64,000 nucleotides of DNA from a virus. Made by a program: the position numbers and the translations under genes. Below, one piece after another: positions 3,061 through 46,953 of the stretch (position 1 is the stretch's first letter; each line of letters opens with the position of its first letter). The stretch covers positions 62,001 through 126,000 of the IMG/VR virus record IMGVR_UViG_3300033153_007754; one strand, written 5' to 3'. Under the pieces are notes generated by a model. The model had not been told where the DNA came from. It was given only the letters and a program-made list of their open reading frames with translations, and ran no database searches.

Positions 3061-4041
3061 TTACAATAAAAAACTTTCCGTTGGTGTATTTATTGAGTTT
3101 CTCAACACAATTTCAGAATTGAAATCAATATTGTTTTGGATTAATTCATTTACATCTTTAATTAAAATAATATTAAAATTACTTTTAGCAAATAACTTCC
3201 AACTAAATACATGATATCCATTTAGAATTAATTCATTTGATGTTTCGTAACCAGCTTCATCATTATCCAAAATAAAATATAAATTCTTTTTTGGAATCTC
3301 ATTATTTATACAATATTCAAGAAATAAATCTGTTTTACTTATGCTACCTAATGCAATATTATTATCAAAAAAAATTGAATCAATCTCACCTTCCAATATA
3401 AAAATTGGTTGATTAATATCTATACCATCCATATTAAAAAATGTTAATTCTGGTGGTAATTCCTTTTTGATTGTTAGATATTTAAGTTTAGGTTTTTGTA
3501 ATAATGAACGGCCTTTTAAAGCATATATATCCCCCTTGTAGTCTAAGTATTTAATTAAAATCCTTTTATCAGGGAAATAAAACTTTTTATTTATTTTATT
3601 AATATTATAATATAGCTGCATAAAGTTTTCTGAATATGTAAAAAAGTGGTGTTTATTTTTGGGTATCATTCTTTTTTTTAAGAATATGTTTAATAAATTA
3701 CTATTATCATTAGTGGCATTATTATAATAAATCATTTCTTCTTTAGTAAATACATTAAAATTATGTTCAACACGTTTTTTTTTAATTATAACTTCTTTGG
3801 GTTTAACATATGTTAATAATTCTAGGTTTATATTGGTGTCTGTTTCTGTATGGTAATCTTCCCCGATTCGTTTATAATATTGTTCTGCGTGTATGCTTGT
3901 TTTACACCTAAAACACTTATACCAAATCCCCTTTGGGTGTTTGTCTAAGCCTAAAACATATGCTCTATAATCTTTGGGGTTATCCCCTCTTGAACCATTA
4001 CCGCAAAAGGTACAAAAAACTGATGTTCTATCATTTACCAT
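3061..4041 (-). CDS. gp61: DNA primase, T4 gp61-like (zinc ribbon + TOPRIM)
   Basis: A 326-residue protein with an N-terminal zinc ribbon (C10xxC13 and C43xxC46). A TOPRIM core follows, with the glutamate motif FILEGEIDS near residues 214-222 and the DNDEAG motif at 259-264. This is the layout and size of T4 gp61 (342 aa), which makes RNA primers with helicase gp41; a gp41-like gene is present at 52.3-53.8 kb. The start overlaps the end of the upstream gene by 11 nt, implying translational coupling. An intrinsic terminator follows the stop. Confidence 0.85.
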   Translation of the reverse strand: MVNDRTSVFCTFCGNGSRGDNPKDYRAYVLGLDKHPKGIWYKCFRCKTSIHAEQYYKRIGEDYHTETDTNINLELLTYVKPKEVIIKKKRVEHNFNVFTKEEMIYYNNATNDNSNLLNIFLKKRMIPKNKHHFFTYSENFMQLYYNINKINKKFYFPDKRILIKYLDYKGDIYALKGRSLLQKPKLKYLTIKKELPPELTFFNMDGIDINQPIFILEGEIDSIFFDNNIALGSISKTDLFLEYCINNEIPKKNLYFILDNDEAGYETSNELILNGYHVFSWKLFAKSNFNIILIKDVNELIQNNIDFNSEIVLRNSINTPTESFLL

Positions 4042-5167: not shown

Positions 5168-5206
5168 TTAAAAAAAACCCCATTTAAAAACAAATTATAG
5201 TATAAT

Positions 5207-5722
5207 TTATTTATTTAATAAAGGCTTGTATCCGTGACGTTTAAGGCTTCTTTCATCTTCTAGTTTATCAATTAAATTAATTTCATCACCTTTTAAAATA
5301 TTAAACATAATGTGGTATGTTTTTTGGCCTGATGATTCAGTATCAAAAGTACCAACAAAAGCGTATGTATTATTTTTTTTATTATACCAAATTGATTCCA
5401 AATCCTTAAATTTAACCCACCCAAAACCATTCCATTCGGGCTCAACGGAATCTATCATATCTTCAACTTCTTCGTCTAAATCTGAATATAATAATATAAG
5501 CTTAACTTCATCATATGTTAATGGGTTCAATATATAGGCTTCCTTTAATTTCTCTACATTATTTCTTATGTCTTCTAAAACATTAACTGATAAATTATCT
5601 TTTTTTAATAATTCTTTATATTCATTCATTTTAATAGTAATAATGTCTATGTTTTCTTTTTCTATTAGTAGCTTTTCAGCTACTATTTTTTGTAATCCAT
5701 CAATTTCTTTAATTAAATCCAT
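5207..5722 (-). CDS. Hypothetical protein (171 aa)
   Basis: The N-terminal ~70 residues form a charged helical or coiled-coil stretch. The C-terminal part is a mixed fold containing WNGFGWVKFKDLESIWY and a Gly/Ser-containing strand pair. It starts at an ATG 31 nt downstream of a TATAAATA element shared in a palindrome with the opposite-strand gene, suggesting late expression. No family is recognised; a minor virion or assembly protein is possible. Confidence 0.65.
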   Translation of the reverse strand: MDLIKEIDGLQKIVAEKLLIEKENIDIITIKMNEYKELLKKDNLSVNVLEDIRNNVEKLKEAYILNPLTYDEVKLILLYSDLDEEVEDMIDSVEPEWNGFGWVKFKDLESIWYNKKNNTYAFVGTFDTESSGQKTYHIMFNILKGDEINLIDKLEDERSLKRHGYKPLLNK

Positions 5723-7119: not shown

Positions 7120-7836
7120 TTATTCATCCAATACGGTATTCATGATTATTATGAAATCTGTTTCTGTAGATTCCCATTTAACTAATCTAATATTTTCATA
7201 AAAAGTTATATCCCAAGAATCAACATGTGGAAACCAATTTAATGTGTGTGTATTTTCTTCAAATGCTTCTGAAGATTCAGAAATCTTTTCCTTAATTTCA
7301 TTTCCAGTACCAGTTGTTTTAATAAAAGATACATTACCATCTTTGATAGTGAATTGATATTCACCTTCATATGAATGAAACATATCATTCAATTTTTTTA
7401 ATTCTTTAAATCTTTCAGAAGATAGTGAAACTGTTGTTTTTTTAGCACCTGAAAACACATTTTTTTCTAAAGTATCCACTGCGCTCATAACGGTTATGTC
7501 ATCACCATTTTTATTCTTTGTTAAATGATTATCTGTTTCATCAGTGCTAAAAGTATATACCATACTTCTTTCATTATTTTTAATTTTTAGATGACTTTCT
7601 TCATTAACAACCGTTTCAAATTCCAGTGTTGGTAATTTATCTGGTGTTACAACAGTAAACAAAGCCATTTTATTTAAAAAATCTTTGATAGAATGTAACT
7701 CTTTACCCTCAAAATCACCAAAACCATCTAATGTTGTTTTAACAAAAATAGAACCATGTTCATCACTAATTGCAACACTATGTTCTAATTTTAATAAATC
7801 TGTGTAATTGCTTAATTTTCTTAAATTAATTAACAT
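7120..7836 (-). CDS. gp45: Sliding clamp, T4 gp45-like
   Basis: A 238-residue protein, close to T4 gp45 (228 aa), lying with gp32- and gp44-like genes as in T4. It shows two repeated clamp-like halves with alternating strands and an 'FxGxKELHSIKDFL' helix resembling the gp45 'D.nGFLgiLslv' segment. The start at MLINLRKL has GGGGTGAAA just upstream; a longer in-frame extension overlaps the previous gene and is unlikely. The trimeric ring would tether polymerase and, in T4, also activates late transcription. Identity is by context plus fold-like pattern. A second, DnaN-like clamp is at 20.5-21.6 kb. Confidence 0.7.
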   Translation of the reverse strand: MLINLRKLSNYTDLLKLEHSVAISDEHGSIFVKTTLDGFGDFEGKELHSIKDFLNKMALFTVVTPDKLPTLEFETVVNEESHLKIKNNERSMVYTFSTDETDNHLTKNKNGDDITVMSAVDTLEKNVFSGAKKTTVSLSSERFKELKKLNDMFHSYEGEYQFTIKDGNVSFIKTTGTGNEIKEKISESSEAFEENTHTLNWFPHVDSWDITFYENIRLVKWESTETDFIIIMNTVLDE

Positions 7837-8020
7837 TTTCACCCCTATTATTTTTCTTGTTTTTAGTTTCAGCATTCTTTGTTTTTTTGTCAATATTCAC
7901 CTGGTGTTTATATGTATGTTTTGGTACATATTTAAAACCACCAAGTCTAACTAAGTTTTCTGCAATACCATCAGATTTTCTAACAATACGACCTGTTTTT
8001 ATTTCTTTAATTGTTTTCAT
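7826..8020 (-). CDS. Small basic hypothetical protein (64 aa)
   Basis: It begins MKTIKEIKTGRIVRKSDG with GGAG seven bases before the ATG. Its stop overlaps the start of the gp45-like gene, so the clamp is probably translationally coupled to it. The product is very basic, with a Lys/Asn-rich tail. No family is recognised. Confidence 0.6.
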   Translation of the reverse strand: MKTIKEIKTGRIVRKSDGIAENLVRLGGFKYVPKHTYKHQVNIDKKTKNAETKNKKNNRGENVN

Positions 8021-8291
8021 TTTTATCTCCATCAAGACTGATTATGACCATTTCGGTCAAGGTTGATAAACGACCCATATTAAAAATAATTTCCCTTGCT
8101 GATTGCCTTTTAATTGTTACATTCATTGCAAAACCCTCAACACTATTAAAAAGTGTGTTTAAAAGAACCATATCAGTTAAAAATGGTTGCAGCATTACTA
8201 GCTTTCGGTTAATATCACCAACAAGTGCTATATAATCAGTTACACCATAATCATTTAATAACTCATACAATTCTTTTAACACATCTTTCAT
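8007..8291 (-). CDS. Hypothetical protein (94 aa) in clamp/SSB operon
   Basis: A helical, acidic 94-residue protein starting after AGGAT, sandwiched between the SSB and clamp genes and overlapping the next gene by 14 nt. T4 places regulators or loader subunits here (gp62, RegA), but at 94 residues this is too short for gp62 (187 aa) and shows no RegA-like signature I can see. Confidence 0.65.
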   Translation of the reverse strand: MKDVLKELYELLNDYGVTDYIALVGDINRKLVMLQPFLTDMVLLNTLFNSVEGFAMNVTIKRQSAREIIFNMGRLSTLTEMVIISLDGDKNENN

Positions 8292-8302
8292 TTTTTTCTA
8301 TC

Positions 8303-9175
8303 CTAAATGTCTGTAATTAAATCATTTACCGTATTCTTATTTACCACAATATCACTTTTAGCTTTTTCATTTTTAACTTCATCCTGTTTTGGGTTAATAT
8401 TAACTTCTTCCTTATGTCCATCAAGAATTTTTTGAACATCTGTTACAATATCATTATATGGTTTTAAATTTTGTTCCATCTTAGTAACAACTTCAGTGAT
8501 GGATGGTAAAGCTGTATATTCAACATCTAATTCACTAAGATGGTGGTCTTTGGGTAGAACAGCAATATTCCAATTCAATTTATTTTGGTCTGGTACTGTA
8601 ACAACTACTTTTAATATCTTACCTTTTTCTGCAAAATAAGGTGTACCCACATCTTCATCAGCATATAATTCCCATAATTTTTCTTTTACGGTTTTTGAAA
8701 AATACCATCTAAATATTTTACCAACATTATCAGGGTTGCTACTATCTTCAGTTACATAAATAAAAGCATACTGTGATTTTTTACTTTTTAATTCTTGATA
8801 TAATTCCTTATCCTTATTTTCCATATCTTCAGGATAAGACTGAAATATTTCTGAAATTAAAGCCTTAGTCTTACCTTCTTCTTTTGTACAAATAGGACAA
8901 TCTTTTCCAAACAGTGTAGGACATACACAATATAATTCAGAAGTGAATTTACCATCAACCTTTTTTTGGTATGCCTTATGCGTAATACTTTCGATAAAAA
9001 ACAATTCGTTATCAATCGCCTTACCATCACAAATTGATGGTAGAATACGTGCTTTAAATACGTGCTTTTTTCCTGTCTTTGGTGTCTCAAAACGATACAA
9101 ACCGGGGAATCCTGTGTTTGATTTATTTTGTGCTTCTGTTTCAGATTTCTTTGCATAATCTTTTAATGATATCAT
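8303..9175 (-). CDS. gp32: Single-stranded DNA-binding protein, gp32-like
   Basis: A 290-residue protein (T4 gp32 is 301). It starts at MISLKDYAKK with a strong AAAGGAG site; an upstream in-frame ATG would add 16 hydrophobic residues and is rejected. The core has 'FKARILPSICDG' and a zinc-binding set (His near residue 75, then C..C and C..C in CVCPTLFGKDCPICTKEE), matching the gp32 zinc subdomain. The C-terminal ~50 residues are charged with an acidic end for partner binding. It coats ssDNA during replication and recombination and lies between the clamp and clamp-loader genes. Confidence 0.88.
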   Translation of the reverse strand: MISLKDYAKKSETEAQNKSNTGFPGLYRFETPKTGKKHVFKARILPSICDGKAIDNELFFIESITHKAYQKKVDGKFTSELYCVCPTLFGKDCPICTKEEGKTKALISEIFQSYPEDMENKDKELYQELKSKKSQYAFIYVTEDSSNPDNVGKIFRWYFSKTVKEKLWELYADEDVGTPYFAEKGKILKVVVTVPDQNKLNWNIAVLPKDHHLSELDVEYTALPSITEVVTKMEQNLKPYNDIVTDVQKILDGHKEEVNINPKQDEVKNEKAKSDIVVNKNTVNDLITDI

Positions 9176-9238
9176 TTTACTCCTTTGTAATAATATGATT
9201 GTTAATATAATACATTTTTTCATTATTTAATAAACTTT

Positions 9239-10249
9239 TTATTTAACCAACTTACTTAATATTAATAATAAATTTGTAATAGTAATTACTTTATCCACAC
9301 TAAATGAAATTTCCCAGCTTGCACGTGCCAATTCAACAATAGCCTGGTGTTCACCTTTTTCTACAAAATATTTTCTTAATTCAACAAAAATTTGATTCTC
9401 AACATATGTATTTTTCGCATATTCGTGTAACTCTCTTATGTCACCTTTTTTTAAAATATCTATTAATAATTTACTATCAATATTTTGTATTTTATTCTTT
9501 AAATCCCCGTTTCTAATATATTCCTGGTATAATATAGAAAGAATACTTCTAAAATCAGGATAAAACATTTTAATGGCATCAACAACAACACTTTCTTCAT
9601 ATTCTATACTTTCTTTTTTTAATATTGAAAATATTCTATGTAATAATTGTGTGATTATTTCACTCTGATTTTCTTTATATATTTTATCTAAAAATAATTC
9701 CCCAGATTTAAACCGACTTCTAATTGGTGGTATTATTTTTTCTGGATAATTAAGTGTTGCAATAAACCTAACCCTGTCTTTATATTCTTCTATAAAACCC
9801 CTTAATGATTTTTGTGCTTCTACTGTAAAATTATCAAATTCGTCCAATACAATTATCTTTTTGTCTATATCATTTTGTGTATATGCGAGTACTGATTTTC
9901 TAGTAGCAAATTCTTGTAATTGTTTTCTAACAACATCTATACCATTTTGTGTGGATGCATTAATGAATAATGGTTTTATATTTAATTCTTTTGTTATTAT
10001 TTTTGCAAGTGTTGTTTTACCTAAACCTTGATATCCAATTAACATTATATTTGGCATATCTAATTTATATGAACCATTTCTTTTCTTTTCCAAACTAATC
10101 CAATTCTTCACTAATTGTTTATATTTTTCTGGAAAAACATATTCATTTAAATCTTCAGGATGGTATCTATCCACCCAATCTTTTGATGCTTTCATTTTAT
10201 CAACCACTTCCTTAATGTTTATTTTTTTACCATCCTTTTTTTTAGTCAT
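9239..10249 (-). CDS. gp44: Clamp loader large subunit, gp44-like AAA+
   Basis: A 336-residue AAA+ ATPase with Walker A GYQGLGKT at 72-79, Walker B IIVLDEFD at 132-139, a sensor-1 TLNYPEKI near 165-172 and IRSRF at 177-181 in place of the SRC arginine-finger motif. Size and N-terminal 'WVDRYHPEDLNEYVFP' are typical of T4 gp44 (319 aa). It loads the sliding clamp using ATP. GAGG lies upstream of the ATG. A separate small subunit (gp62) was not recognised nearby. Confidence 0.9.
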   Translation of the reverse strand: MTKKKDGKKINIKEVVDKMKASKDWVDRYHPEDLNEYVFPEKYKQLVKNWISLEKKRNGSYKLDMPNIMLIGYQGLGKTTLAKIITKELNIKPLFINASTQNGIDVVRKQLQEFATRKSVLAYTQNDIDKKIIVLDEFDNFTVEAQKSLRGFIEEYKDRVRFIATLNYPEKIIPPIRSRFKSGELFLDKIYKENQSEIITQLLHRIFSILKKESIEYEESVVVDAIKMFYPDFRSILSILYQEYIRNGDLKNKIQNIDSKLLIDILKKGDIRELHEYAKNTYVENQIFVELRKYFVEKGEHQAIVELARASWEISFSVDKVITITNLLLILSKLVK

Positions 10250-10328
10250 TCATTTACCTCACTATAGTATATCATGAAATATTATTACATTTTTTTTTTA
10301 TTTAACTAAATCATTTTAAAAAAAATAC

Positions 10329-10393
10329 TTGACAAACCCAAAAAAAACTGTATATTGTAGATAGATGGCAATTAAGCCATGATTCAATAGGAG
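10329..10393 (+). promoter_or_regulatory. Sigma70-like promoter with 5' dyad cassette (copy A)
   Basis: TTGACA at 10329-10334 and TATATT at 10351-10356 are separated by 16 bp. Eight bases further lies the perfect dyad ATGGCAATTAAGCCAT (10365-10380), followed by AGGAG at 10389-10393 and the ATG at 10400. The dyad falls at or just after the expected start site, so the mRNA would begin with a 5-bp hairpin with an AAUUAA loop. The same arrangement recurs at six other places in the window. Confidence 0.85.
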
Positions 10394-10399
10394 AATGAT

Positions 10400-11380
10400 A
10401 TGATTGAGAATACTATGTGGTGTCCAAATTGTAATGAGGGCGAGGAATTAAAGAACATTAGTGATGGAAATATAAAGTGTAGAACATGTGGGTACATAGG
10501 AAAGCCGAATTGTCTTACCAATCCGTCATCGACAGAATTGGTAACCAGTGAGGAAGATATTAACGAATTGGTAGATTGTGTTACGGATAAATCACATCAA
10601 ACAACTGGTATTGGCTTTTTTAGTGCAGGGTCTGTTGATATAATTAATTTAATAAATGAAAATGAAGGGTTATTGAAATATGATTCATATGGTTCATTTA
10701 TTTTTATTATTTGGAATGGGGAAAACACCCAAAAAGTAATAGATTTATTAAAAAAAGGCGATGTGTTTCATGCCTTTATTTTAAATCACAATCATTGGTC
10801 ATATTCACAGGAAGATACACTTAAAAGAATTTCAGGTCTAATTCAATATTGGAATAACCATACTTCATCCATTACCTATCATAAGGTAAAAAATCAACAA
10901 ATTGAATTAAATAAAAAACATGTAGAATGTATGGAAGGTATGGGAGTATATTCTACTAAAGATATTAATGATTTTATGCATCCAATATATTTACTAAACA
11001 GAATATATAAAAACAAAGAAATAACTAAAAGGGATATGGGTGAGTTAAAAAAACTTATCCCTGATAATGCTGAAGGGATTAAATTAATTGAAAATTTTAA
11101 ATCTGATGTGTGTAGAGATTTTTTTCACCATGGTCATTTAGGTTATGATGAATATTTAGATACACATCTACCCATTTACAATATGTTAATAAAAAATCTA
11201 CCAGAAAACATTAAAAAAATCATATCTGGAGGGACTGATTCTTATAGTTACTCATATGAAGAAGAATGGGGTAAAAGAATGAACCAAAATGTCCATAGAA
11301 TTGACACTGAATTTATGCTTAATCAATTAAAAGGTTTAAGGCAATATGCTAGACTATTAATAGATATAGAAAAAAACTAA
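10400..11380 (+). CDS. Zinc-ribbon protein of unknown function (326 aa)
   Basis: The first gene behind promoter copy A. The N-terminus has a zinc ribbon (CPNC near residues 8-11, CRTC near 27-30). The rest is alpha/beta with many His and aromatic residues. Residues around 66-77 (HQTTGIGFFSAG) and the C-terminal ~30 (TEFMLNQLKGLRQYARLL) reappear almost intact in the 50-residue gene at 12885-13037. The early-type promoter suggests a host-takeover or regulatory role; no family is recognised. Confidence 0.75.
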   Translation: MIENTMWCPNCNEGEELKNISDGNIKCRTCGYIGKPNCLTNPSSTELVTSEEDINELVDCVTDKSHQTTGIGFFSAGSVDIINLINENEGLLKYDSYGSFIFIIWNGENTQKVIDLLKKGDVFHAFILNHNHWSYSQEDTLKRISGLIQYWNNHTSSITYHKVKNQQIELNKKHVECMEGMGVYSTKDINDFMHPIYLLNRIYKNKEITKRDMGELKKLIPDNAEGIKLIENFKSDVCRDFFHHGHLGYDEYLDTHLPIYNMLIKNLPENIKKIISGGTDSYSYSYEEEWGKRMNQNVHRIDTEFMLNQLKGLRQYARLLIDIEKN

Positions 11381-11415
11381 ACAATCCCCAATTAAATAAA
11401 ATAAAATAAAAACGC

Positions 11416-11480
11416 TTGACGAATCCCGAAAAATCAGTATACTCTAAGTAGATGGTAATTAAGCCATAACCCAAGGGAGG
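11416..11480 (+). promoter_or_regulatory. Sigma70-like promoter with 5' dyad cassette (copy B)
   Basis: TTGACG at 11416-11421 and TATACT at 11438-11443 with a 16-bp spacer, then the dyad ATGGTAATTAAGCCAT at 11452-11467, then GGGAGG before the ATG at 11486. The inner pair of the stem is T/G, which can still pair as U-G in RNA. Confidence 0.85.
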
Positions 11481-11485
11481 ATACT

Positions 11486-12073
11486 ATGAAAGTCATTGAA
11501 TCAAATAACGCATATATGCAGAAAGCGGAATCAATAATTATAACTTTTATTCAACCTATGTTTCATAGGGATTATAAGAATTCTTTAATGTATAATATCA
11601 AAGAAGTGTTATCATACCTATCAAAAAGAAAAAACACACCATCATTAAGCCTACATTGGTTGAATATGTCTTTAGAAAATGGATTCACTCACATGGCATT
11701 AAATAAAAGAATAGAAAAAAAAACTATAAAAAAACTTAATAAAATTAGATTAAAAAAAATATCATTATCCGATAATGAATATAGGTTACTGGGTACACAC
11801 ATTGGTTTAAATGGTAGTAATTCAATTAACTCTTTGGTTGATGATAACTATTCTTATGTTGCACTAGAAGATTATAAGGATGGAACTAATTTTTCAAAAC
11901 ATAAAATAGCCGGTTTAATATCTTCATTAGAAGAAAAAGGTTTTATATATAATGAAGATATTGGTCAAAATACTTTATATGTATTAAATGTTGATTATTT
12001 ATTAGAATATATTTTAACTGAGGAAGAATGTAGTATGTCTTTTTGGGATTGGGAATTATTCAGAGTGAAATAA
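11486..12073 (+). CDS. Hypothetical protein with winged-helix-like C-terminus
   Basis: A 195-residue protein expressed from promoter copy B with a GGGAGG site. The C-terminal part (about residues 135-180: FSKHKIAGLISSLEEKGFIY and following strands) has the shape of a winged helix: a recognition-like helix, then a beta wing. The N-terminal half is helical and basic (IEKKTIKKLNKIRLKK). A DNA-binding early regulator is a plausible inference, not shown by a known signature. Confidence 0.6.
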   Translation: MKVIESNNAYMQKAESIIITFIQPMFHRDYKNSLMYNIKEVLSYLSKRKNTPSLSLHWLNMSLENGFTHMALNKRIEKKTIKKLNKIRLKKISLSDNEYRLLGTHIGLNGSNSINSLVDDNYSYVALEDYKDGTNFSKHKIAGLISSLEEKGFIYNEDIGQNTLYVLNVDYLLEYILTEEECSMSFWDWELFRVK

Positions 12074-12131
12074 AACATCAGACCTAAACAAGTCTTAAAA
12101 CTGTTTTTTTTTCATTAGGAGGGTTGTAATA

Positions 12132-12875
12132 ATGTATAAGTACACGGTAACATTGATATGTTACCAAAACAGGAAGTTTTTAGAAATCGTATTCATTGTC
12201 ACATCAATATGTGGTTTAGAACATTTTAGTGGTGGTGAATTATTGGATATTATCGAAAAATTAAACATTGATATTGTATTTGATACTTCAATTATATGTG
12301 ACGATTGGGAATCAGATGTAGATTTTAAAATAATACACCAAAATGAATTGGTGTTAAAAGATGAAAACAAAATAAACACCAAATTTAAAATTAAAGCTGA
12401 TGAATTAAATAGTGATATATTAAAACATAAATTAGAAAGTCTAAAATTAAAGTGTGAAAAATATGATTTTATAAGTGAGATTTTAGAATCAGAAACAAGA
12501 AATTTAACTAAGGATGAAAAATTGTTTCATAGTGGTTTTAGTTTTGAATATGACGAATATATGTATTTTAAAGAAAGAAGAATGAAGGAATTTATAATTG
12601 ACAGGAAGGGTAGAATACATAGGGTTGCTGAAAACCTTTATTTTTCCCGTTGGGGTTGGGATGGTACATCATTTCATGATAAAATCACCAAACCATTTTT
12701 CCAAAATGTTAAATACCCTAAATCACATGCAGTTAATAAAGGATGGATTATAATTGGTAGCCATGTTGGATTTAAAATTATTGTAATGCCAACAATAAGA
12801 CAAATAGAAACATTAAAAAAATTGGGTTGGCATAGTATATGGTTTAATGGTGAATATTTAAATATTAATAATTAG
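12132..12875 (+). CDS. Hypothetical protein (247 aa)
   Basis: Third gene of the plus-strand accessory block, with AGGAGGG before the ATG. The N-terminal ~110 residues are alternating beta/alpha. The C-terminal half is rich in aromatic and basic residues, with FSRWGWDGTSFHDKI and HAVNKGWIIIGSHVG. No family is recognised. The 58-bp gap upstream has no clear promoter, so it is probably co-transcribed with 11486-12073. Confidence 0.7.
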   Translation: MYKYTVTLICYQNRKFLEIVFIVTSICGLEHFSGGELLDIIEKLNIDIVFDTSIICDDWESDVDFKIIHQNELVLKDENKINTKFKIKADELNSDILKHKLESLKLKCEKYDFISEILESETRNLTKDEKLFHSGFSFEYDEYMYFKERRMKEFIIDRKGRIHRVAENLYFSRWGWDGTSFHDKITKPFFQNVKYPKSHAVNKGWIIIGSHVGFKIIVMPTIRQIETLKKLGWHSIWFNGEYLNINN

Positions 12876-12884
12876 GAGGATAGT

Positions 12885-13037
12885 ATGTGTGTTCAAAAAG
12901 AAAATGTAATGAACCAAACAACAGGGTTTGGTTTTTTTAGTGCTGGTGATATTGAACACATTAACACTAAATTCATGCTTAATCAATTAAGAGGTGTAAT
13001 TCAATGCCTTAGATTATTAACAGATATAGGAAAATAG
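12885..13037 (+). CDS. Mini-paralogue of the 326-aa zinc-ribbon protein
   Basis: A 50-residue ORF with TTAGGAGGATAGT before its ATG, 9 nt after the preceding gene. NQTTGFGFFSAGDIEHIN matches QTTGIGFFSAG of the 326-residue protein at 10400-11380. TKFMLNQLRGVIQCLRLLTDIGK matches that protein's C-terminus. It therefore looks like an internal-deletion derivative that keeps one internal segment and the C-terminal helix. A good ribosome site and intact frame argue that it is expressed. Confidence 0.65.
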   Translation: MCVQKENVMNQTTGFGFFSAGDIEHINTKFMLNQLRGVIQCLRLLTDIGK

Positions 13038-13058
13038 GAACACACTATTCTCTCAAAA

Positions 13059-14135
13059 CTAAACAATACCCATCTCAATCAAATTAAAAATAAAATTTTC
13101 ATAATTACTGACAGTTCCAGCAAAAGTATCAAAGTTTAACGAATCTATATACCCATTTAATATAGCTGGTTGTAGAATATCTAATTTCACCACAATATCT
13201 TTTAATAAAATTGTATCAACATAACCATATTTAATATATTTTTTGTAATCATTTAAGTATAACTTTTCAAGGTTACCTTCATCGTGGTAATTAACTTTCC
13301 CATATTCATCACCTAAAATTGTTTTTGCAACATAATCTAAAGAATATTTTGGAAGTGGTGGGTAATACACTTTTAATAAATCCATACTATCTATCTGTGA
13401 AACCCCCAAAATATCAACAGCATCATATTCACCAAATTTATCCCTGCCTGTATAAGTTCTTACCTTACCAAAAGGTGAAAAGTTCTTACCACCGAGACCA
13501 ATTTTTTCAGCACGATAATAGAGATATGGGTCATCAAATTTAGAACCATTATGTGCTATTATGATATCATTATTTTCTTTTAAATATTCAAAGAAATGTG
13601 ATATTAAATCTTTTTCGTTTTCAAAATGTTTATAATAATCATATGTCTGAGTATAATCTTCTTTGTAACCAAAAGCAAAACTATGTTTTTTATTAAAATC
13701 ATAACCTGTTATTAGTGTTACAGCGTGTTTGGCTTCTTTAACATTCACTCTTTTACCATCGAACCTGGTTTCTATGTCATAATAAAGTGGCCGTGGAATG
13801 TTTAAATCCATTAAATCTACATCCAAACTAAAGTTTTTACTGATATATTGACACTCTATAGTATCAACACCATACAAATCTATTTCACCATCTTTTTTCA
13901 ATGTTCGTAATAAATTTTTATATTCTTTAATGTCGTTTGATTTATATTCAGCAACATTAACACCTTCTATTGTAACACAAGTGTTTTCACTTTCATTTGC
14001 AGATTCTATATATAACCTTAAAGGCATTTGTTTTATTATTTTTGAAACATATTCTAATGTCATAAAATCATAATATTTTAAATATAATTTATTTCTATAT
14101 TCCTTGATATAAGTATATTGTTGTTTTATTTCCAT
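13059..14135 (-). CDS. gp43A: DNA polymerase B, 3'-5' exonuclease part (split gp43, N-terminal)
   Basis: A 358-residue protein corresponding to the N-terminal and exonuclease domains of family B polymerase. Exo I LYYDIET lies near residues 118-124, Exo II HNGSKFDDPYL near 195-205, and Exo III YGYVDTILL with Asp near 307. It ends cleanly a few tens of residues after Exo III, before where palm motif A would begin. The polymerase half is a separate gene at 18371-20275. The two should assemble to give a proofreading polymerase. The start chosen follows GGGTAATAAC; an in-frame ATG four codons upstream is possible. Confidence 0.88.
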   Translation of the reverse strand: MEIKQQYTYIKEYRNKLYLKYYDFMTLEYVSKIIKQMPLRLYIESANESENTCVTIEGVNVAEYKSNDIKEYKNLLRTLKKDGEIDLYGVDTIECQYISKNFSLDVDLMDLNIPRPLYYDIETRFDGKRVNVKEAKHAVTLITGYDFNKKHSFAFGYKEDYTQTYDYYKHFENEKDLISHFFEYLKENNDIIIAHNGSKFDDPYLYYRAEKIGLGGKNFSPFGKVRTYTGRDKFGEYDAVDILGVSQIDSMDLLKVYYPPLPKYSLDYVAKTILGDEYGKVNYHDEGNLEKLYLNDYKKYIKYGYVDTILLKDIVVKLDILQPAILNGYIDSLNFDTFAGTVSNYENFIFNLIEMGIV

Positions 14136-14200
14136 GTTATTACCCATTCTTGAAAAGAATAATTATAGTTTTTTTTTGATATTTAAGGAATCTTTTTTTG

Positions 14201-14326
14201 TTAAGATTTCATTTCATTAAGTTGATTCTTAATGTCTTTAACGTCATTTTCTGATAGTTTAACTCCACCCAGACGTTCATCCACATCATTTAATATTTCG
14301 CTCAATTCATCTAAATGTTCACTCAT
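14201..14326 (-). CDS. Small coiled-coil-like protein (41 aa)
   Basis: An ORF read by eye: it starts MSEHLDELSEILNDVDERLG with a strong GGAGGTAAAA site and ends with Lys/Asn-rich helix. Heptad-like Leu/Ile spacing suggests a short coiled coil. It precedes the exonuclease gene on the same strand. Confidence 0.6.
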   Translation of the reverse strand: MSEHLDELSEILNDVDERLGGVKLSENDVKDIKNQLNEMKS

Positions 14327-14349
14327 TTTTACCTCCATATATTAACTTT

Positions 14350-14658
14350 TTATTTAGTGATAATATTCACCAATTTTTTAGGAATAAGAACTATCTTTTC
14401 GATATTTTTATCACCAATATATTTTATTACAGCCGAATTATTCATAGCAAGTCTTTCAATTGCACCCTTGTCTTCATCTTTATATATAACTTCTTTCCCT
14501 ATTAATTTCCCATCCACTTGAAAAATGACAACTGTATATTCACCCTCTTCTTTCCATCCACATTTAGTTGATTCAATATATGAAAAAGGGTTGAGAAAAA
14601 AACAATCAATACATTCTGCTATATCATTAATAAGTATTTCACGTATTTCATCAATCAT
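14350..14658 (-). CDS. Small protein resembling the leucyl-tRNA synthetase C-terminal domain
   Basis: A 102-residue protein, translationally coupled (ATGA) to the upstream gene. From about residue 42 the order is VVIFQVDGKLIGK, a helix ERLAMNNSAVIKYI, and the ending KIVLIPKKLVNII. This follows the C-terminal domain of bacterial LeuRS ('v.qvnGKvr.k ... er......v.kyl ... rKviyvPgKLlNlv') in order and spacing. There is no catalytic HIGH/KMSKS portion. In LeuRS this domain contacts tRNA-Leu. A phage modulator of host LeuRS or a tRNA binder is an inference. The comparison is from memory and needs a profile search. Confidence 0.45.
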   Translation of the reverse strand: MIDEIREILINDIAECIDCFFLNPFSYIESTKCGWKEEGEYTVVIFQVDGKLIGKEVIYKDEDKGAIERLAMNNSAVIKYIGDKNIEKIVLIPKKLVNIITK

Positions 14659-15014
14659 TTTTTACCACCATGTTGATTTAATAAAAGTTCAATTTCTTTA
14701 TCTTCTTCATCAGTTGTATCAAGACCTTTATCTTCTGTCAATAAATTGTTTACTTCGATTAATTTATTTAATAACACCATGTTACTTGTATTGTAGCCAT
14801 CTAAAGTAATCCTTAAAGAATCATGTATCTCTTTAATTAACTTAATTAACCCTAAATCAACATCTTCATTATTATTATTATCTGCACGTTGCATCAATTT
14901 CTTTAAAAATTGTTTTAAATCCTTTATTGATTCTTTATATTCTTTACGGATAAAAACAACTTCATTGTTAAACGCTTTTACATTCCCCTCTATTTTAATA
15001 ACATCCTTATCCAT
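14655..15014 (-). CDS. Helical hypothetical protein (119 aa)
   Basis: The start at MDKDVIKIEGNVKAFNN has GGTGATTACT upstream; a longer frame with a hydrophobic N-terminus overlaps the previous gene and is rejected. The product is almost all helix with a coiled-coil pattern and an acidic C-terminus. It lies between probable virion genes and the LeuRS-like gene. Its function is unknown. Confidence 0.6.
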   Translation of the reverse strand: MDKDVIKIEGNVKAFNNEVVFIRKEYKESIKDLKQFLKKLMQRADNNNNEDVDLGLIKLIKEIHDSLRITLDGYNTSNMVLLNKLIEVNNLLTEDKGLDTTDEEDKEIELLLNQHGGKK

Positions 15015-15642
15015 AGTAATCACCAATATTAAATTTAATAACAAATTCAAATATATGTTTAAAATCACCTTCTTTATCAAATTGATAATTAACACCAACT
15101 TCATCATCATATTCATGTAAAAGATTCACCCCATTTGGTGGTAAATTTGTTAAATAATTTTCTGTGTTATGATATAAATAAAGTAACATAACACTTTCAT
15201 AATAATTCTCTAAACTAGATAAAATCTCTTCACTAATATTTTTCCAATTAATTATCTTTCTTATGTATAAATAATAAGAATCAGTGTTATAATTTAATAA
15301 CATATTGTTTAATGCAGTACTATCATTTTCGTCAACAAATTTTAAATATCTTGTTACAAAAGGTGTAACATTCTTATCAACATGTATTTTATCATAATCA
15401 TTAGAATCACCTGTATCATAGCAAAGCGTTAATAAGCCATCCGCATCTGAAAGTATATTATTTAACAATAAAACATTTGGGTCAGAGCTTCTAATATCTT
15501 CATATGTTGTTGTTGCCGTTGCTGTATTTATTTTATCTTTAGATAAAAGTAAATATAAAAATTTACCATTTTTAATAAATCTCACAATCATTTTTATTAT
15601 ACCAGCATTAACAGCATTAAAAATCGTATTTTGTTTACTCAT
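15007..15642 (-). CDS. Hypothetical protein, probable virion/tail component
   Basis: A 211-residue protein with GAGAGG before the ATG, coming 2 nt after the adhesin-like gene in transcription order. It has a helical centre rich in Tyr and Asn and no known motif. Its place next to the beta-rich 547-residue protein and the tube-like 170-residue protein suggests a structural role, but this rests on context alone. Confidence 0.6.
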   Translation of the reverse strand: MSKQNTIFNAVNAGIIKMIVRFIKNGKFLYLLLSKDKINTATATTTYEDIRSSDPNVLLLNNILSDADGLLTLCYDTGDSNDYDKIHVDKNVTPFVTRYLKFVDENDSTALNNMLLNYNTDSYYLYIRKIINWKNISEEILSSLENYYESVMLLYLYHNTENYLTNLPPNGVNLLHEYDDEVGVNYQFDKEGDFKHIFEFVIKFNIGDYYG

Positions 15643-15644
15643 GT

Positions 15645-17288
15645 TTACCTCTCATTTAAATAACGATAAACACCACTATCTTTATCATAGTAACCTAAAA
15701 TAACATATTCCCCATAATACCCCGTTAGCTCTGTTTTAGTTGCACCACCAGCATCTTCCACTAATTTTAGTTCACCACTTAAATGTGATTCTAAAAGATA
15801 AAATGATTTAACAGCTCCTTCATTTGCGTAACTTTTTAATATAAATGCATTATTTAAAATTATATTACTTGATGTAAACAATGGTTTTATTATAATGCTA
15901 TCAGTACCACTTTCTTTAACCAACATACCATCAAACATATTATTTTCATTTGCGAATTCAGTGTTTTTAGGTAAATTAATTAAAAATTGTTTTCTTTCTG
16001 TTATGTTTCCTAAAGCCATATTAACATTTAATGGCATTACACATAAATAATCATCATTTTTTCGCATAACAATATAATCATTTGTTATATACGCAACATC
16101 AGATAAATTAAAAACTTCATCATTTAAAATGTCATCATTATTGTCTTTTTGGATTGGTATATTCCATTGTGATAATAATACACCAGTATTTAAATCAAGT
16201 GATTGCATAAATGTATTATCACCGTTTTTATTTGGTGATGCCCTAAACAACACAAAAACCTGTCTGATAATATCTATTTGGTGTGATATATAATCCGTAT
16301 CAGTCAAACTAATTGCTTGTATTACACTCACATCTGTATTATTTACGGTAACACTACTTCCAGTTCCACTTAATGTAAAATAACCAACATTTAGATTATC
16401 CACACCTGAAGTACCTGTAATATACCACATGTTTGAACCTGATGTTGTTATGTACATTTGCCTAAAATTGGTGGCTGAATTAATTGTCAATGAACCAGTA
16501 TTTAATGAAAGAGGGTACGGAATTGCGTCCGAAGCTACATATGCAATACTAACAGTTGTATCATACGGATTTACACCATAGATAGATGTTATAATAGCAT
16601 AATCATTATCCATATCATATGTTACATCATAGCTTTGTATAGTCTCTGTTGTTGAGTTACCAAGGGTTGACATAACCGTTGTAATACTTGGTGTAATAAA
16701 GTTAAATAAAAACTTAGCAGTCCAATGATATTTAGTTCCTGGTGCACCAGTTATATAATTAGTAGCAGTAACATAAAAACCCAGTGATTGACTTCCAGAA
16801 TCATAATAACAATAAATGTGAGAGTTTTGTGAGGTTTTTTCCTGTAATATTTGGTTTGTTGTTATTACCTCACTATGTTCTCCATTATAAAAATCTAGTG
16901 TATCACCATTTAATCCATCATATTTAACAAAAAGATGTGTTTCGTTATTGTATTCATATAGAACTAAATAAAAAATAATACTATAATCACCCCCAATCAT
17001 ATAATATTTTTTTACTTCATGAATATAAGTATAATCCACCCCTAAATTAAATGTCATATATCCATCGTTTAATGTGGATGGTATGCTTATACCTTCAGGT
17101 GTATTGATATACACTAAATGTTCACTTTGAAATTCAGGTGCATCTAATACAGAAACTTGGTGTTTTTTAAACATATCTGTTTCCGTGTTGAAATTATTCT
17201 CAACTAATTTGTTGTATTTTTCGTAAAACTCTTTAATTTTATTGGTACTTGGAATGACCAGTAAATCCGATTTTGGATATAAACTCAT
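15645..17288 (-). CDS. Beta-rich putative adhesin / tail accessory protein
   Basis: A 547-residue protein, start MSLYPKSDLL with AGGAG 12 nt upstream. It is rich in Thr, Ser, Asn and Tyr, with repeated short beta segments ('YDVTYDMDNDYAIITSIYG', 'SFYLLESHLSGELKLVE') as in propeller-like surface proteins. Cys is rare and there is no signal peptide. These features and the neighbours suggest a receptor-binding or other exposed tail protein. No specific family is recognised. Confidence 0.6.
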   Translation of the reverse strand: MSLYPKSDLLVIPSTNKIKEFYEKYNKLVENNFNTETDMFKKHQVSVLDAPEFQSEHLVYINTPEGISIPSTLNDGYMTFNLGVDYTYIHEVKKYYMIGGDYSIIFYLVLYEYNNETHLFVKYDGLNGDTLDFYNGEHSEVITTNQILQEKTSQNSHIYCYYDSGSQSLGFYVTATNYITGAPGTKYHWTAKFLFNFITPSITTVMSTLGNSTTETIQSYDVTYDMDNDYAIITSIYGVNPYDTTVSIAYVASDAIPYPLSLNTGSLTINSATNFRQMYITTSGSNMWYITGTSGVDNLNVGYFTLSGTGSSVTVNNTDVSVIQAISLTDTDYISHQIDIIRQVFVLFRASPNKNGDNTFMQSLDLNTGVLLSQWNIPIQKDNNDDILNDEVFNLSDVAYITNDYIVMRKNDDYLCVMPLNVNMALGNITERKQFLINLPKNTEFANENNMFDGMLVKESGTDSIIIKPLFTSSNIILNNAFILKSYANEGAVKSFYLLESHLSGELKLVEDAGGATKTELTGYYGEYVILGYYDKDSGVYRYLNER

Positions 17289-17301
17289 ATTTTTTAAACT
17301 C

Positions 17302-17814
17302 CTATAAAAAATCCATTGTGAAATATTCATATATAAATTCGACATCTACTGTTTTATACACAACGTCTTGTATAAGTGATGTTCTATTAATACGACTATA
17401 ACTCGCAAATATAGTATTGTGATAAGTTATTTTAATAAGAGGTTTTTTAGAAACATTATCCATTTTAAAAACAACTAAATTAAAACGATTAGCGTCTTCA
17501 CTAATTCTATGTTTTAATGAAGACATATCTATTAGATTTTCAGCAAAATATTTATATAAAAATTTCATAATATTCCACTTATTATCTAAAATAAACGGAA
17601 TAGTAATATTTTCAAAATTCAATATTGTATCAACAATTATGTGTTCATAACCGTTTCTATGGTTCTTTTTTTTAGTGAAATTCAGACCCATCCCAACTAA
17701 ATCAACACTTAAGGCATAATGTTCTAAATTTTCACCACCTTTAAAATCAAATACGATTAAATAATTATTGTCAATGTCAAAATTCTTTGGTAGTTCACCT
17801 GTAAATTCAATCAT
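17302..17814 (-). CDS. Tail-tube-fold-like structural protein
   Basis: A 170-residue protein whose ATG follows directly on the upstream stop codon. The C-terminus alternates strands and ends in VYKTVDVEFIYEYFTM, resembling the last strand of tube-fold proteins such as gp19 and gp54 ('...v.f.y.yf'). The central helix FLYKYFAENLIDM also fits that fold. It may be a baseplate or tube-initiator protein; this is a fold-level guess. Confidence 0.5.
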   Translation of the reverse strand: MIEFTGELPKNFDIDNNYLIVFDFKGGENLEHYALSVDLVGMGLNFTKKKNHRNGYEHIIVDTILNFENITIPFILDNKWNIMKFLYKYFAENLIDMSSLKHRISEDANRFNLVVFKMDNVSKKPLIKITYHNTIFASYSRINRTSLIQDVVYKTVDVEFIYEYFTMDFL

Positions 17815-18048
17815 TTACGCAATCCATATTCTAATGCCATAAATTATCGTTTGGTTTAATGGTGTATCGTTAAAATAAATTGCCTGTGTTGCGTCTTCTG
17901 TTATTTTAAAACTCCCCGTTTCAAAATCAATTGATAAACCCTCATTTGCAAAAACAGTAATATCGTTTTCTGTATTATAATCTTCTAAATTATGTTTTTT
18001 TTGAAATGTTTTAAATAATTCATTAAATTCTCTAATATATTCACCCAC
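17815..18048 (-). CDS. Small hypothetical protein with GTG start (77 aa)
   Basis: It begins at a GTG eight bases after GGGGTT, 23 nt downstream of a TATAAATAG late element. The N-terminal half is helical and charged, and the C-terminal half looks like short strands (SIDFETGSFKITEDATQAIYF). It is probably a late virion or assembly protein; no family is recognised. Confidence 0.6.
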   Translation of the reverse strand: MGEYIREFNELFKTFQKKHNLEDYNTENDITVFANEGLSIDFETGSFKITEDATQAIYFNDTPLNQTIIYGIRIWIA

Positions 18049-18070
18049 AAATAACCCCTAAATATATAAT

Positions 18071-18079
18071 CTATTTATA
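18071..18079 (-). promoter_or_regulatory. Late-promoter-like TATAAATAG
   Basis: An exact TATAAATA on the minus strand, 23 nt before the GTG start at 18048. It overlaps the end of the gene at 18075-18371, so the virion-like genes between the two polymerase parts can be expressed late and independently. Confidence 0.6.
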
Positions 18080-18371
18080 GAAAATCGTTAATACCATTGC
18101 TTTTTTTATTTTTCTTGAATTCATTAAAGAAATAACCACCATCTTTATATAGTTTCTGAATTCTATCTTTAAAAAAGCCTGGCATATTTTTATTGAAATC
18201 ATCTAATTCATTATCATCTTCTACGTTATACATACTCAACGCATTTACTAATAATTTAGCTATATTATCACCTTCTACATAATCTTCATAAACTTTATTC
18301 CAAATTATGTTATAAAATTTATTCTTTAGTGCTGTGTCATTTTTTAAATCTTTAAAGCTGTGAAAATCCAT
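18075..18371 (-). CDS. Hypothetical protein coupled to polymerase subunit (98 aa)
   Basis: Its ATG overlaps the polymerase stop codon (TAATG) with GGGAGTAC upstream, so it is translationally coupled to the polymerase gene. It is a helical, Lys/Asp/Asn-rich protein with no known motif. Coupling makes a polymerase partner possible but unproven. Confidence 0.6.
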   Translation of the reverse strand: MDFHSFKDLKNDTALKNKFYNIIWNKVYEDYVEGDNIAKLLVNALSMYNVEDDNELDDFNKNMPGFFKDRIQKLYKDGGYFFNEFKKNKKSNGINDFL

Positions 18372-20275
18372 TAAAAGTACTCCCTAAAATTGTTTGTTTT
18401 TTTCAATTGCCATCCGGCCGCCCCTAATAAAATATTTAAACTAGATAGATAAAAAGCATCAAATTGTAAATCATAATCTATATCAGTTACAAAATATTTC
18501 ATCATTTCTAAATTTCTAAAAGTGATTGTATCACCTTTACCCGTAAATTGTTTATTTGCCTTTAAATACACGAAATAAGCATAATCACCATTTTCAATAA
18601 AAGATGTTGGGATATTGTGTTTTCTAATTAAATAATTACAATAAGCTGCGCCCCTAAGTATTGGAGTTGCTTTTGGTTGTATTACATAATCAGCTTTTTT
18701 TATTATCTTATTATCTTTAAATAATTTTCTATAAGTATTTATCTTATAAGCATTTTTTAATGCATTATGTGTACTATATTCTTTTATATATTTGTGATAT
18801 TTATTTACCTTTGTGTTTTGTGCAATTTGTGTTATATCCATAGTTTTAAATTCTTTTCTTATTTTTTCAACAAATCCCCTTAATTCATCAATTTTATTTC
18901 TAAATATTATATCAACACTATGTTCTAACCACTTTGTTATAACAACCGGGTACGAAACATTTTTTGTAGATAACCCCGTTGTTTTTAATTTGTATGGTGT
19001 AAAAAACTTACCTTCGTCATACAAAGTTTTCATTACGTATTTTTTCTTTTCAACGTGCAAAGCCGCTTCATTAATCTTTTCAATTTTCATTTTCATTTTA
19101 TATTCAAATTTATTAATATAGTCACTACTATTTTTAAATGTTGTATCAATTATTGGTTGTGCAACCTTTTCATTAAATACTAAAATATCATTAATTAGTT
19201 CCTTGTTGGTTGCATAGACTTTGTTTTTATATAGTGCCTGTATAAGTGGGTCAATATTTACGTAAACCGAATCTGTGTCTATATATATAGATGGTTCATA
19301 ATCTTTGTAATCTGGAAACATAATTTTAAAATTATCTGTTACGGATTTAGCAATAGATTTAATATAATATTGGCTTAAAGATGTTATTGCATTTGCAACA
19401 TCCAAATCATAATATTTGTAATAAGCATTCGCAAAAGCACCATAACCCTTGTTTAAATTCCGTTTAAATGCTAAATCTTTCGTTCTGTAAACCCTTTCTT
19501 GTTCACCCCAATATTTAATGTTCTTTTCGTCATTGTTTTCTTTAGCTTTATTTAATCCATCAATAGCATTACTTCTATGTGCTTTTGCAACTAAACGTTT
19601 ATCATATAAATAATTCATAGCCACACACATAACACTTTTCTTGTTTAGTTTAAAAAACATAAGATTTGGTGTTACTGATAAATTATACTTTTCTAAAAAA
19701 CCACCAAAATCTATTGTTCTTGTTACCATCAAATCTATTGTTGCGGCTAAAATATCTCTATAAAGTGGGTCACTCGATTTTCTATATAAAATGTTAAAAT
19801 ATGATTTTGGAAATTCAAAACTTAATAAATCATCTTTTCTATATTCATCTGTTTTAATTAATAAGTATTCCCCACCTCTTTTAACTGCAATTCTTTTACC
19901 TTCTTCAATTTTTTCTTTTTTTAATTTACCAGTTCCATCAAAAAAATGATGATAAAAAGTAGAACCCTTTCTGCTATACATAGACTTTGTCATTTTCTTT
20001 ATAGGAACGTGTCTACCTTTGCCAGTTTCAAACACATTGAATATCTCAACCTGTTTAAATAAATGTTCCCTAAAGTCAATTGGTAAATCAGCCAACATTA
20101 TTTTATTTTCCTTTCCAATATTAGCTGTCATAATAGCGGATGGATATTCCGAGTTAACATCAAAAGACATTGTAAAACCATACAATCCACGTTTAGTTAA
20201 ATAATTATAACCACCCAAATAAGGGTACTTTTCTGAATGTGCAACAAAACGCCCACTAACCAATTTTCTATTCAT
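18371..20275 (-). CDS. gp43B: DNA polymerase B, palm/fingers/thumb part (split gp43, C-terminal)
   Basis: A 634-residue protein holding the polymerase half of a family B enzyme. Motif A SFDVNSEYPS lies at about 37-46 (Glu replaces the usual Leu of SLYPS), motif B K..xN..YG at about 271-279, and motif C YIDTDS at about 331-336. It starts just before motif A, so the exonuclease domain is absent and encoded at 13059-14135. The C-terminal thumb region follows. The weak site GGTG precedes the ATG. It lies downstream of a DnaN-like clamp gene, which may serve this polymerase. Confidence 0.92.
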   Translation of the reverse strand: MNRKLVSGRFVAHSEKYPYLGGYNYLTKRGLYGFTMSFDVNSEYPSAIMTANIGKENKIMLADLPIDFREHLFKQVEIFNVFETGKGRHVPIKKMTKSMYSRKGSTFYHHFFDGTGKLKKEKIEEGKRIAVKRGGEYLLIKTDEYRKDDLLSFEFPKSYFNILYRKSSDPLYRDILAATIDLMVTRTIDFGGFLEKYNLSVTPNLMFFKLNKKSVMCVAMNYLYDKRLVAKAHRSNAIDGLNKAKENNDEKNIKYWGEQERVYRTKDLAFKRNLNKGYGAFANAYYKYYDLDVANAITSLSQYYIKSIAKSVTDNFKIMFPDYKDYEPSIYIDTDSVYVNIDPLIQALYKNKVYATNKELINDILVFNEKVAQPIIDTTFKNSSDYINKFEYKMKMKIEKINEAALHVEKKKYVMKTLYDEGKFFTPYKLKTTGLSTKNVSYPVVITKWLEHSVDIIFRNKIDELRGFVEKIRKEFKTMDITQIAQNTKVNKYHKYIKEYSTHNALKNAYKINTYRKLFKDNKIIKKADYVIQPKATPILRGAAYCNYLIRKHNIPTSFIENGDYAYFVYLKANKQFTGKGDTITFRNLEMMKYFVTDIDYDLQFDAFYLSSLNILLGAAGWQLKKTNNFREYF

Positions 20276-20507
20276 ATTTTGCACCACAAATTATTTGGGT
20301 TTTTCTCTTATTAAACAATAATAAATCATCACATTTGAGACACTTTTTATCAGCCACAAGGCAATTTTTTTTATCACAAACATTTTGTGTTATCTTATTA
20401 TTAATTATTGTAAATAAACTAATTAAATTAACATTTGCATCTTCTATATATTTATTATCATCACTTTCTTTATATGGTTTCCCAAACATTATTTTATATT
20501 CCATCAT
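20268..20507 (-). CDS. Cys-rich small protein, probable zinc-binding (79 aa)
   Basis: Two CxxC-like groups (VCDKKNC, KKCLKC) and a further Cys near the C-terminus suggest a zinc site. The gene overlaps the polymerase start and lies between DnaN-like clamp and polymerase, with GGGG before the ATG pair. It may be a replication accessory; no family is recognised. Confidence 0.6.
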   Translation of the reverse strand: MMEYKIMFGKPYKESDDNKYIEDANVNLISLFTIINNKITQNVCDKKNCLVADKKCLKCDDLLLFNKRKTQIICGAKYE

Positions 20508-20512
20508 ATCCC

Positions 20513-21610
20513 CTAATCTAAATCCATTGGCATTATATAATAATTAGTTTTAATACTACTATTTAATTTAGGATACACTCTAATTACTTCATCATTCTGA
20601 ATAAAATCAAATACCACTTCATTACTTTTCAATTTTTTTAATATTAACTCTAAAAAATGACCAGACAATCCTATTTGATTTATTTTATATTTGGATAATC
20701 CTATTTTAATTTTAGACTTTAATTTACTGTTATCAAAATCGTTTGTTCTTAAATACATGTTTTTACCATCAAGTGAATCTAATATAATTAAAAATGTATC
20801 TTTATTACTTAAAGCATTGATATCTGTAACATTTTTCAACAAACGTTTTCTATTAAAAAACAAAAGATTACCATTCTCTCTTGTTATAGATTCCCAGTTA
20901 ATAAAATCATTCCCTTGTGTTAATTCCCAGATTTCAAAATACTTGTTTTTAACACAAAACATATTATTACTTTTATCATAACTAATTTGTACTTTTAAAT
21001 TATTATTTCGGTATGGTGTTAATACTTTTATTAGATTTATTACAAATGTATTGTGTAATAAGAATTGGTATTCAACATCAGTTTGTTTAAAAATATTGAC
21101 ATTATTATGTGCTAATATAAAACTATTAGTTCCTATTATACCCTTATTACCAATACACACATTTTGTAATCTTTTTTTTGTAACATCTTTAGATGTCATT
21201 TCAGCAACATTTTCTAACTTTTCCAATAAACTGTTTAATGATATTTCACCCTTTAATTCATATTTGCTTATGTTTTGCGGATAAACAAAGCCATTATCAT
21301 GTAAATTCTCCACAACAAAGTTATATTTTTTATTAGAAATTTCGATTGAATCAAACAATTTCACCTCTGTTTGATAATCACTTAGATGGTTTTTAATTTT
21401 TAGTAAAACCTGTGGATTAAAGAATATGTTTTTAGTTGTTTCCTTGTTGATAGTAACGTTTTTTGGTAGATTGTATATAATACCACCACCTTCACTAATT
21501 CTTGCTACCAGCGCCTTTTTTTTAACATCCAAACAGACTGGATTGAAATTAAAATCCATAGTATTTAAAAAATTGGTTACACTGGTTATTATCGTATTAA
21601 ACTTTTGCAC
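20513..21610 (-). CDS. dnaN: Bacterial-type sliding clamp (DnaN-like beta clamp)
   Basis: A 365-residue protein, the usual DnaN length (~366), starting at a GTG eight bases after GGAG. Markers in order: KRLQNVCIG..GIIGTNSFILA (domain 2 'L.gv....vATDghRLA'), EIWELTQGNDFINWESI ('i.rLieG.FPdY..ViP'), LLFFNRKRLLKNVTDI ('...r..Ll.al.rv..l'), and the last residues YYIMPMDLD ('yviMPmrl'). It would be a three-domain dimeric ring. Its presence beside the polymerase, in addition to a gp45-like clamp, is unusual. Confidence 0.8.
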   Translation of the reverse strand: MQKFNTIITSVTNFLNTMDFNFNPVCLDVKKKALVARISEGGGIIYNLPKNVTINKETTKNIFFNPQVLLKIKNHLSDYQTEVKLFDSIEISNKKYNFVVENLHDNGFVYPQNISKYELKGEISLNSLLEKLENVAEMTSKDVTKKRLQNVCIGNKGIIGTNSFILAHNNVNIFKQTDVEYQFLLHNTFVINLIKVLTPYRNNNLKVQISYDKSNNMFCVKNKYFEIWELTQGNDFINWESITRENGNLLFFNRKRLLKNVTDINALSNKDTFLIILDSLDGKNMYLRTNDFDNSKLKSKIKIGLSKYKINQIGLSGHFLELILKKLKSNEVVFDFIQNDEVIRVYPKLNSSIKTNYYIMPMDLD

Positions 21611-46926: not shown

Positions 46927-46953
46927 ACTTCACTCCCTTAAAAACATATAAAC

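Follow-up and report, generated by a model that had tools for sequence, protein, structure and literature searches.

The window analysed here is a 64,000-nucleotide stretch of the T4-like viral contig IMGVR_UViG_3300033153_007754, a record of 153,500 bases in which it spans positions 62001-126000. It carries two genes whose products both resemble sliding clamps: P0001, probably a gp45-like (two-domain, T4-type) clamp of 238 amino acids (aa) at 7120..7836, and P0002, a DnaN-like (three-domain, bacterial beta-type) clamp of 365 aa at 20513..21610. Positions are those of the window unless the record or another contig is named. An initial annotation had placed both open reading frames (ORFs) at these coordinates; the coordinates were right, but both genes are encoded on the minus strand, and the plus strand there is full of stops. 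P0001 starts with an ATG at 7836 and has a Shine-Dalgarno-like AGGGGTG, and P0002 starts with a GTG at 21610 with GGAG upstream.

Both clamp genes lie on the minus strand, in separate and compact replication operons. The first operon consists of a gp44-like clamp-loader ATPase (9239..10249; phrog_168, E 2.3e-61), a gp32-like single-strand DNA-binding protein (8303..9223; PF08804, 1.8e-10), a 94-aa ORF of no family (8007..8291), P0001, and a DHH phosphoesterase that overlaps the end of P0001 (6147..7127; phrog_4771, 3.2e-27). In the second, P0002 is followed after a 5-nucleotide (nt) gap by a 79-aa ORF of no confident family (20268..20507), which overlaps by 20 nt the 638-aa C-terminal (polymerase) half of a family-B DNA polymerase (18371..20287; phrog_262, 1.8e-76, and alignment to T4-type gp43). 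The neighbours named in the initial annotation, gp44 and gp32 near P0001 and the polymerase half near P0002, were thus found as described, and so was the terminal MPM motif, since P0002 ends in YYIMPMDLD.

To P0002, the family PHROG_947 ('DNA polymerase processivity factor') matched over residues 107-364 with an E value of 3.4e-14; in controls this profile gave matches in 13/14 bacterial and archaeal genomes and in 6/6 DnaN-bearing phages. When DnaN sequences from E. coli and ten phages were aligned and the resulting 11-sequence alignment was run by hhalign against the contig's own single proteins of at least 140 aa, P0002 was recovered at a probability of 94.4 (E 9.4e-8, 295 columns, residues 57-364), and the next own protein reached 1.0; residues 1-56 are weakly supported as DnaN-like. 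Global alignment to the DnaN profile gave a z of 6.9 versus 100 shuffles, although by raw score one of 22 other own proteins (L008_3408_4610) nearly equalled P0002 (-22.5 vs -22.4). Mere generic clamp similarity was rejected because z was only 1.8 against the gp45 profile. The AlphaFold2 single-sequence model of P0002 was poor (predicted local distance difference test, pLDDT, 35.6; predicted template-modelling score, pTM, 0.33). With this poor model, beta clamps filled the first 43 rows of the Foldseek search (best E 0.031), and VIA-align placed residues 114-236 on clamp domains with Z at most 8.7, barely above the level that the tool itself notes for unrelated models. The outcome that the initial annotation would have taken as refutation, a predicted structure lacking the clamp fold, was thus not obtained for P0002, although a model of this quality supports the fold only tentatively. 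The Pfam C-terminal beta domain PF02768 scored 13.5 bits, below its curated cut-off of 27, so P0002 is filed as DnaN-like and not as a certified DnaN, and its identity to seven DnaNs was 12-17%. Judged from sequence, P0002 is nearly certainly a divergent three-domain bacterial-type DnaN/beta-clamp protein, in line with the DnaN-type identity given earlier.

For P0001, no family was found in Pfam or NCBIfam at E<=1 and PHROGs returned one noise match. Local hhalign of gp45 versus P0001 was not significant (probability 4.4, rank 2), the AlphaFold2 single-sequence model was useless (pLDDT 30.9), and the structure-search matches obtained with it are meaningless. Such results would fit the reading that P0001 is no clamp at all and P0002 the sole ring, an explanation which we consider improbable in view of the full-length comparisons. 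Searching the fetched loci with the gp45 of a T4-type phage yielded 70 ORFs, from which we made a gp45 profile; with this hidden Markov model (HMM) P0001 topped the contig's ORFs (rank 1, E 0.016). The full-length gp45 alignment of P0001 scored -0.1 against -23.6 +/- 4.9 for shuffles, with 0/200 as good, and under four gap settings it was equalled by 0/300 shuffles and 0/61 own proteins of 190-290 aa. Compared with 34 families from fetched contigs, P0001 fitted gp45 best (z 4.1; next 3.1), and when the halves were aligned separately, the N half gave z 4.8 (0/300 shuffles as good) and the C half z 2.2 (10/300), so that the similarity lies mostly in the N half and is weak in the C half. The Pfam family PF02916 (DNA_PPF) does not match P0001, but it equally misses most of 15 other T4-type or gp44-bearing records, matching just 5. 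P0001 is also acidic (isoelectric point, pI, 4.9; net charge -16), as are the gp45s and 11 DnaNs compared, adjoins gp44 and gp32, and is co-encoded in the contig with the gp44 loader and a gp55 late sigma factor. These results suggested that P0001 is probably a divergent T4-type gp45 clamp. The gp45-like label thus stands on full-length alignment, HMM rank and synteny, and it was not borne out by standard profiles, local hhalign or a usable model; the evidence is moderate here, versus firm for P0002 as DnaN-like.

The phage accordingly likely has two clamp-type proteins, in support of the earlier proposal of two different clamps in one T4-like genome. The accompanying statement that T4-like phages normally have only gp45 was also supported by the records compared. 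No DnaN-like gene (PHROG_947) was found in 15 other named T4-type or gp44-bearing records, one of them partial (a 53-kb Campylobacter phage contig), or in 50 viral contigs with a gp44 relative (50 of 80 fetched, 8.5-185 kb, mostly fragments). An apparent second clamp in Aeromonas phage CC2 (PHROG_947, 7.0e-4) was rejected because it is the same 236-aa frame, on the same strand and in the same place, as CC2's gp45 hit. In the other direction, PF02916 gave no match in 6 DnaN-bearing phages, though this family misses many gp45s. The pair of a gp45-like and a DnaN-like clamp is therefore absent from the other T4-like phages that we compared. According to a review of T4 late transcription (PMC2988020), the clamps of T4 relatives are without exception PCNA-like and not of the bacterial type. 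By title and abstract, no phage with both ring types was described in the literature searched, in which subscription journals are poorly covered, so that absence from print is unproven.

The portal, major head protein, sheath, terminase, primase, helicase, gp32, gp44 and family-B polymerase all match the corresponding phage families. Their best identities against 50,697 phage records were low (polymerase about 27%, gp44 31%, terminase 34%, head protein 25%). The phage is a deep branch of the T4-like phages. Both clamp loci recur at 100% nucleotide identity in three contigs (L001, L002 and L003), and an assembly artefact was rejected because these identical contigs exist, although their samples are perhaps not independent. 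Viral contigs were scanned for close relatives with one protein at a time (P0001, P0002, gp44 or the polymerase), and these scans returned identical contigs only. No relatives of P0001 or P0002 were found in the 50,697 phage records, none of P0002 in a pattern search of genome contigs, and none of either protein in the contigs found by a polymerase motif scan.

In T4, processivity and late-transcription coupling depend on a single clamp protein. T4 late transcription uses a gp45-type system with gp55 (PMC2988020). In our contig gp44 is the sole match to the clamp-loader family, and no gp62 was identified. A gp55 late sigma factor lies at record 5043-5639 (PHROG_234, 2.9e-14); it was missed by PF04542 and found by a four-sequence gp55 profile and PHROG_234. 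Since gp55 is present, a gp45-type late-transcription activator is expected. The octamer TATAAATA was found before 12/213 genes against about 4 expected and ranked 4/56 among octamers of the same composition; because other octamers were as enriched, late-promoter timing was dropped as evidence. Separately, TAAATATA, often within ATAAATATATT, occurs mostly at about -27 to -41 before 20/213 genes, with about 5.5 expected (for example at 5722, 5780 and 33529). It is possibly the late promoter of the phage, and it is absent before either clamp gene.

We next compared the client-binding surface of P0002. By alignment it keeps E. coli L155, T172, L177, M362, P363, M364 and L366, whereas G174, H175, R176 and P242 are replaced by S, F, I and I, respectively, and R365 by D; we take the listed E. 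coli residues to be the client-binding pocket of DnaN. Several of these positions vary too among the 11 comparison DnaNs. P0002 is basic (pI 9.25, net +11), whereas the 11 comparison DnaNs have pI 4.3-6.3 and net charges of -36 to -2. The helices that would face DNA, whose limits we assumed, carry +3, equal to E. coli, and the rest of the protein +8 vs -14. The AT-rich composition (window G+C 26.8%) may partly explain this charge, yet P0001 is acidic although the same contig encodes it.

A scan for clamp-binding peptides, as suggested in the initial annotation, gave no canonical beta-type peptide and only a weak T4-type fit, in the polymerase tail. None of the contig's 217 predicted proteins contained the canonical beta-binding pentapeptide, QL[SD]L[FL], and none had a relaxed version of it, for which 1.8 would be expected. 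T4-type polymerase tails (131 from fetched loci, 54 distinct) read about K-x-[ND]-T-[LI]-E-x-F-F, and the window polymerase tail, KKTNNFREYF, aligns where gp43 has its clamp-binding peptide. The best scorers with the tail position-specific scoring matrix, a type IV Cas7-like protein and a methyltransferase, look like chance, and the phage polymerase was not singled out.

The most economical reading of these results is that the gp45-like ring carries on as in T4 while the DnaN-like ring has been added as an early hub that relies on the host loader and/or clients, a division of labour which we infer and put forward tentatively. P0001, loaded by the gp44 complex, would retain the T4 processivity-ring role and would act with gp55 as late-transcription activator. 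P0002 would be an additional early ring, made together with the polymerase and serving as a beta-type docking hub. It would most likely depend on the host clamp loader and/or tether host beta-binding proteins to phage DNA, with host repair polymerases, ligase, MutL and the DnaE type as candidate clients; alternatively, it might withhold such proteins from the host. Reliance on the host is proposed because the phage proteins contain no canonical beta-binding peptide and the contig has a single loader ATPase, and host capture gains some weight from the 0/217 count. A further and slightly more speculative step is a mixed replisome, in which a gp44-loaded PCNA-like gp45 ring and a host-loaded beta-type ring might work on the same DNA with separate clients. 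If so, the phage would use the T4 and bacterial clamp 'languages' at once.

Several observations weigh against this assignment. The P0002 gene adjoins the polymerase, which favours the polymerase as partner over host clients, and the pocket substitutions and the basic charge both depart from a standard beta clamp; with these substitutions host peptides might not bind. The absence of the canonical motif is compatible with non-canonical beta-binding motifs in phage proteins. For the other ring, 221/4000 null tails scored as well as the window polymerase tail, so the fit of this tail to the T4-type peptide is positional only, and P0001 as the polymerase ring is unsupported by it.

One alternative is that the labour is swapped, with P0002 as the processivity ring of the polymerase and P0001 kept mainly for gp55-dependent late transcription. 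We regard this as possible but doubtful, though it explains the data nearly as well as the hub, because the P0002 gene is in one operon with the polymerase half and the polymerase tail is degenerate compared with the tails of its 131 relatives. The polymerase position and the weak T4-type tail fit together make a split of polymerase and late transcription between the rings possible, and the presence of gp55 fits it. However, of the two rings it is P0001 whose gene lies with gp44 and gp32, gp44 being the contig's single loader ATPase; the polymerase tail retains its length and an aromatic pair at the homologous place, and the C half of the polymerase has no canonical beta-binding peptide.

The charge of P0002 raises another, unlikely role, that of a positively charged processivity or accessory factor that binds DNA and needs no loader, similar to what is reported for the herpesvirus clamps UL42/UL44 but on a DnaN fold. 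According to a review (PMC9690074), viruses without loaders have clamps that carry much positive charge and bind directly to DNA, and the net +11 of P0002 fits this account. Against it, the excess charge lies off the helices that would face DNA, a G+C content of 26.8% by itself favours lysine, and the phage possesses a loader ATPase. Least likely of all, P0002 could serve as a decoy, drawing off the host's clamp loader or its clamp-binding proteins and so halting host replication, since its pocket is partly preserved and the phage proteins lack the canonical beta motif, but its place in an operon with phage replication genes speaks against this.

A T4 relative with both clamps would offer a direct test bed for two ring systems sharing one DNA. 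With such a phage one could ask whether a single phage AAA+ loader is able to open gp45-type as well as beta-type rings, and whether two rings can divide processivity and late-transcription coupling between them.

Other features of the record were also observed. The family-B polymerase is split, with the 362-aa N-terminal/exonuclease half encoded at 13059..14147 on the minus strand (PF03104, 1.4e-14; phrog_262, 4.4e-54), about 4.2 kb from the polymerase half, and a gp61-like DNA primase lies at 3061..4041 (minus strand; phrog_47, 2.4e-29). Close downstream of the clamp-polymerase operon, the protein of 17302-17814 (minus strand) shows weak similarity (phmmer, 2.6e-6) to a gp19-type tail tube protein of contig L246, which itself matches PF06841 at 7.3e-8. 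The ribonucleotide reductase large subunit (26790-29570, minus strand) has a probable intein at residues 180-430 (PF14890, 2.5e-6, below cut-off), and in the uncultured phage LR756500 the start of a gp44-like ORF (L017:5902-6663) resembles by eye the C-terminal end of an intein. Outside the window, a five-gene operon at record 128090-131966 (L008:2090-5966, plus strand) scores as a type IV CRISPR-Cas effector set, with matches to Cas6b-like (2.6e-33), Csf1 (8.3e-33), Csf2 (1.5e-43, with a Cas11-like N-terminal part, 5.6e-11) and Csf3 (9.9e-31). It also encodes a protein with BrxP/DndC matches, which we take to be PAPS-reductase/CysH-like, and this operon on a T4-like phage presumably resembles type IV-B. 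No CRISPR array (exact 20-mers recurring at 45-90 nt) was found in the six record pieces examined. A TnpB/Cas12f-like protein of 539 aa is encoded at record 46263-47882 (L006:6263-7882, minus strand), matching PF07282 (3.6e-14), PADLOC Cas12u3/Cas12f and a PHROG transposase. A long plus-strand gene run with MORN_2 repeats covers record 1-40000 (L004, L005) and is seen also at L008:12734-13237, with PF07661 matches of 3.2e-28 and 6.7e-23 in two genes tested and tandem 72-nt repeat units in L008.

Among known systems, Gp168 of phage Twort is presumably a clamp-binding inhibitor (PDB title 7evp) and illustrates a different way for a phage to reach the host beta clamp, but it binds a clamp whereas P0002 would be one. 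Like the herpesvirus UL42/UL44 proteins, whose charge is given in PMC9690074, P0002 has a positive net charge and probably a clamp fold, but it is of the DnaN three-domain type, has its excess charge off the inner helices and occurs with a loader ATPase. With bacterial DnaN and the siphovirus DnaNs of PHROG_947 (for example those of Klausavirus, Persistencevirus and Nodularia phages) P0002 shares the three-domain length, an alignment over most of the protein and the C-terminal MPM-L; it differs in being 12-17% identical, basic rather than acidic and partly changed in the pocket, and in belonging to a phage that also carries gp44 and a gp45-like ring. P0001 in turn resembles T4 gp45 in its two-domain length (238 vs 228 aa), full-length profile alignment, acidity, position near gp44 and gp32, and the presence of gp55 in the same contig. 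Unlike T4 gp45, it is missed by standard profiles and its gene lies downstream of gp44 and gp32 instead of directly before gp44, and the phage that carries it encodes a second ring.

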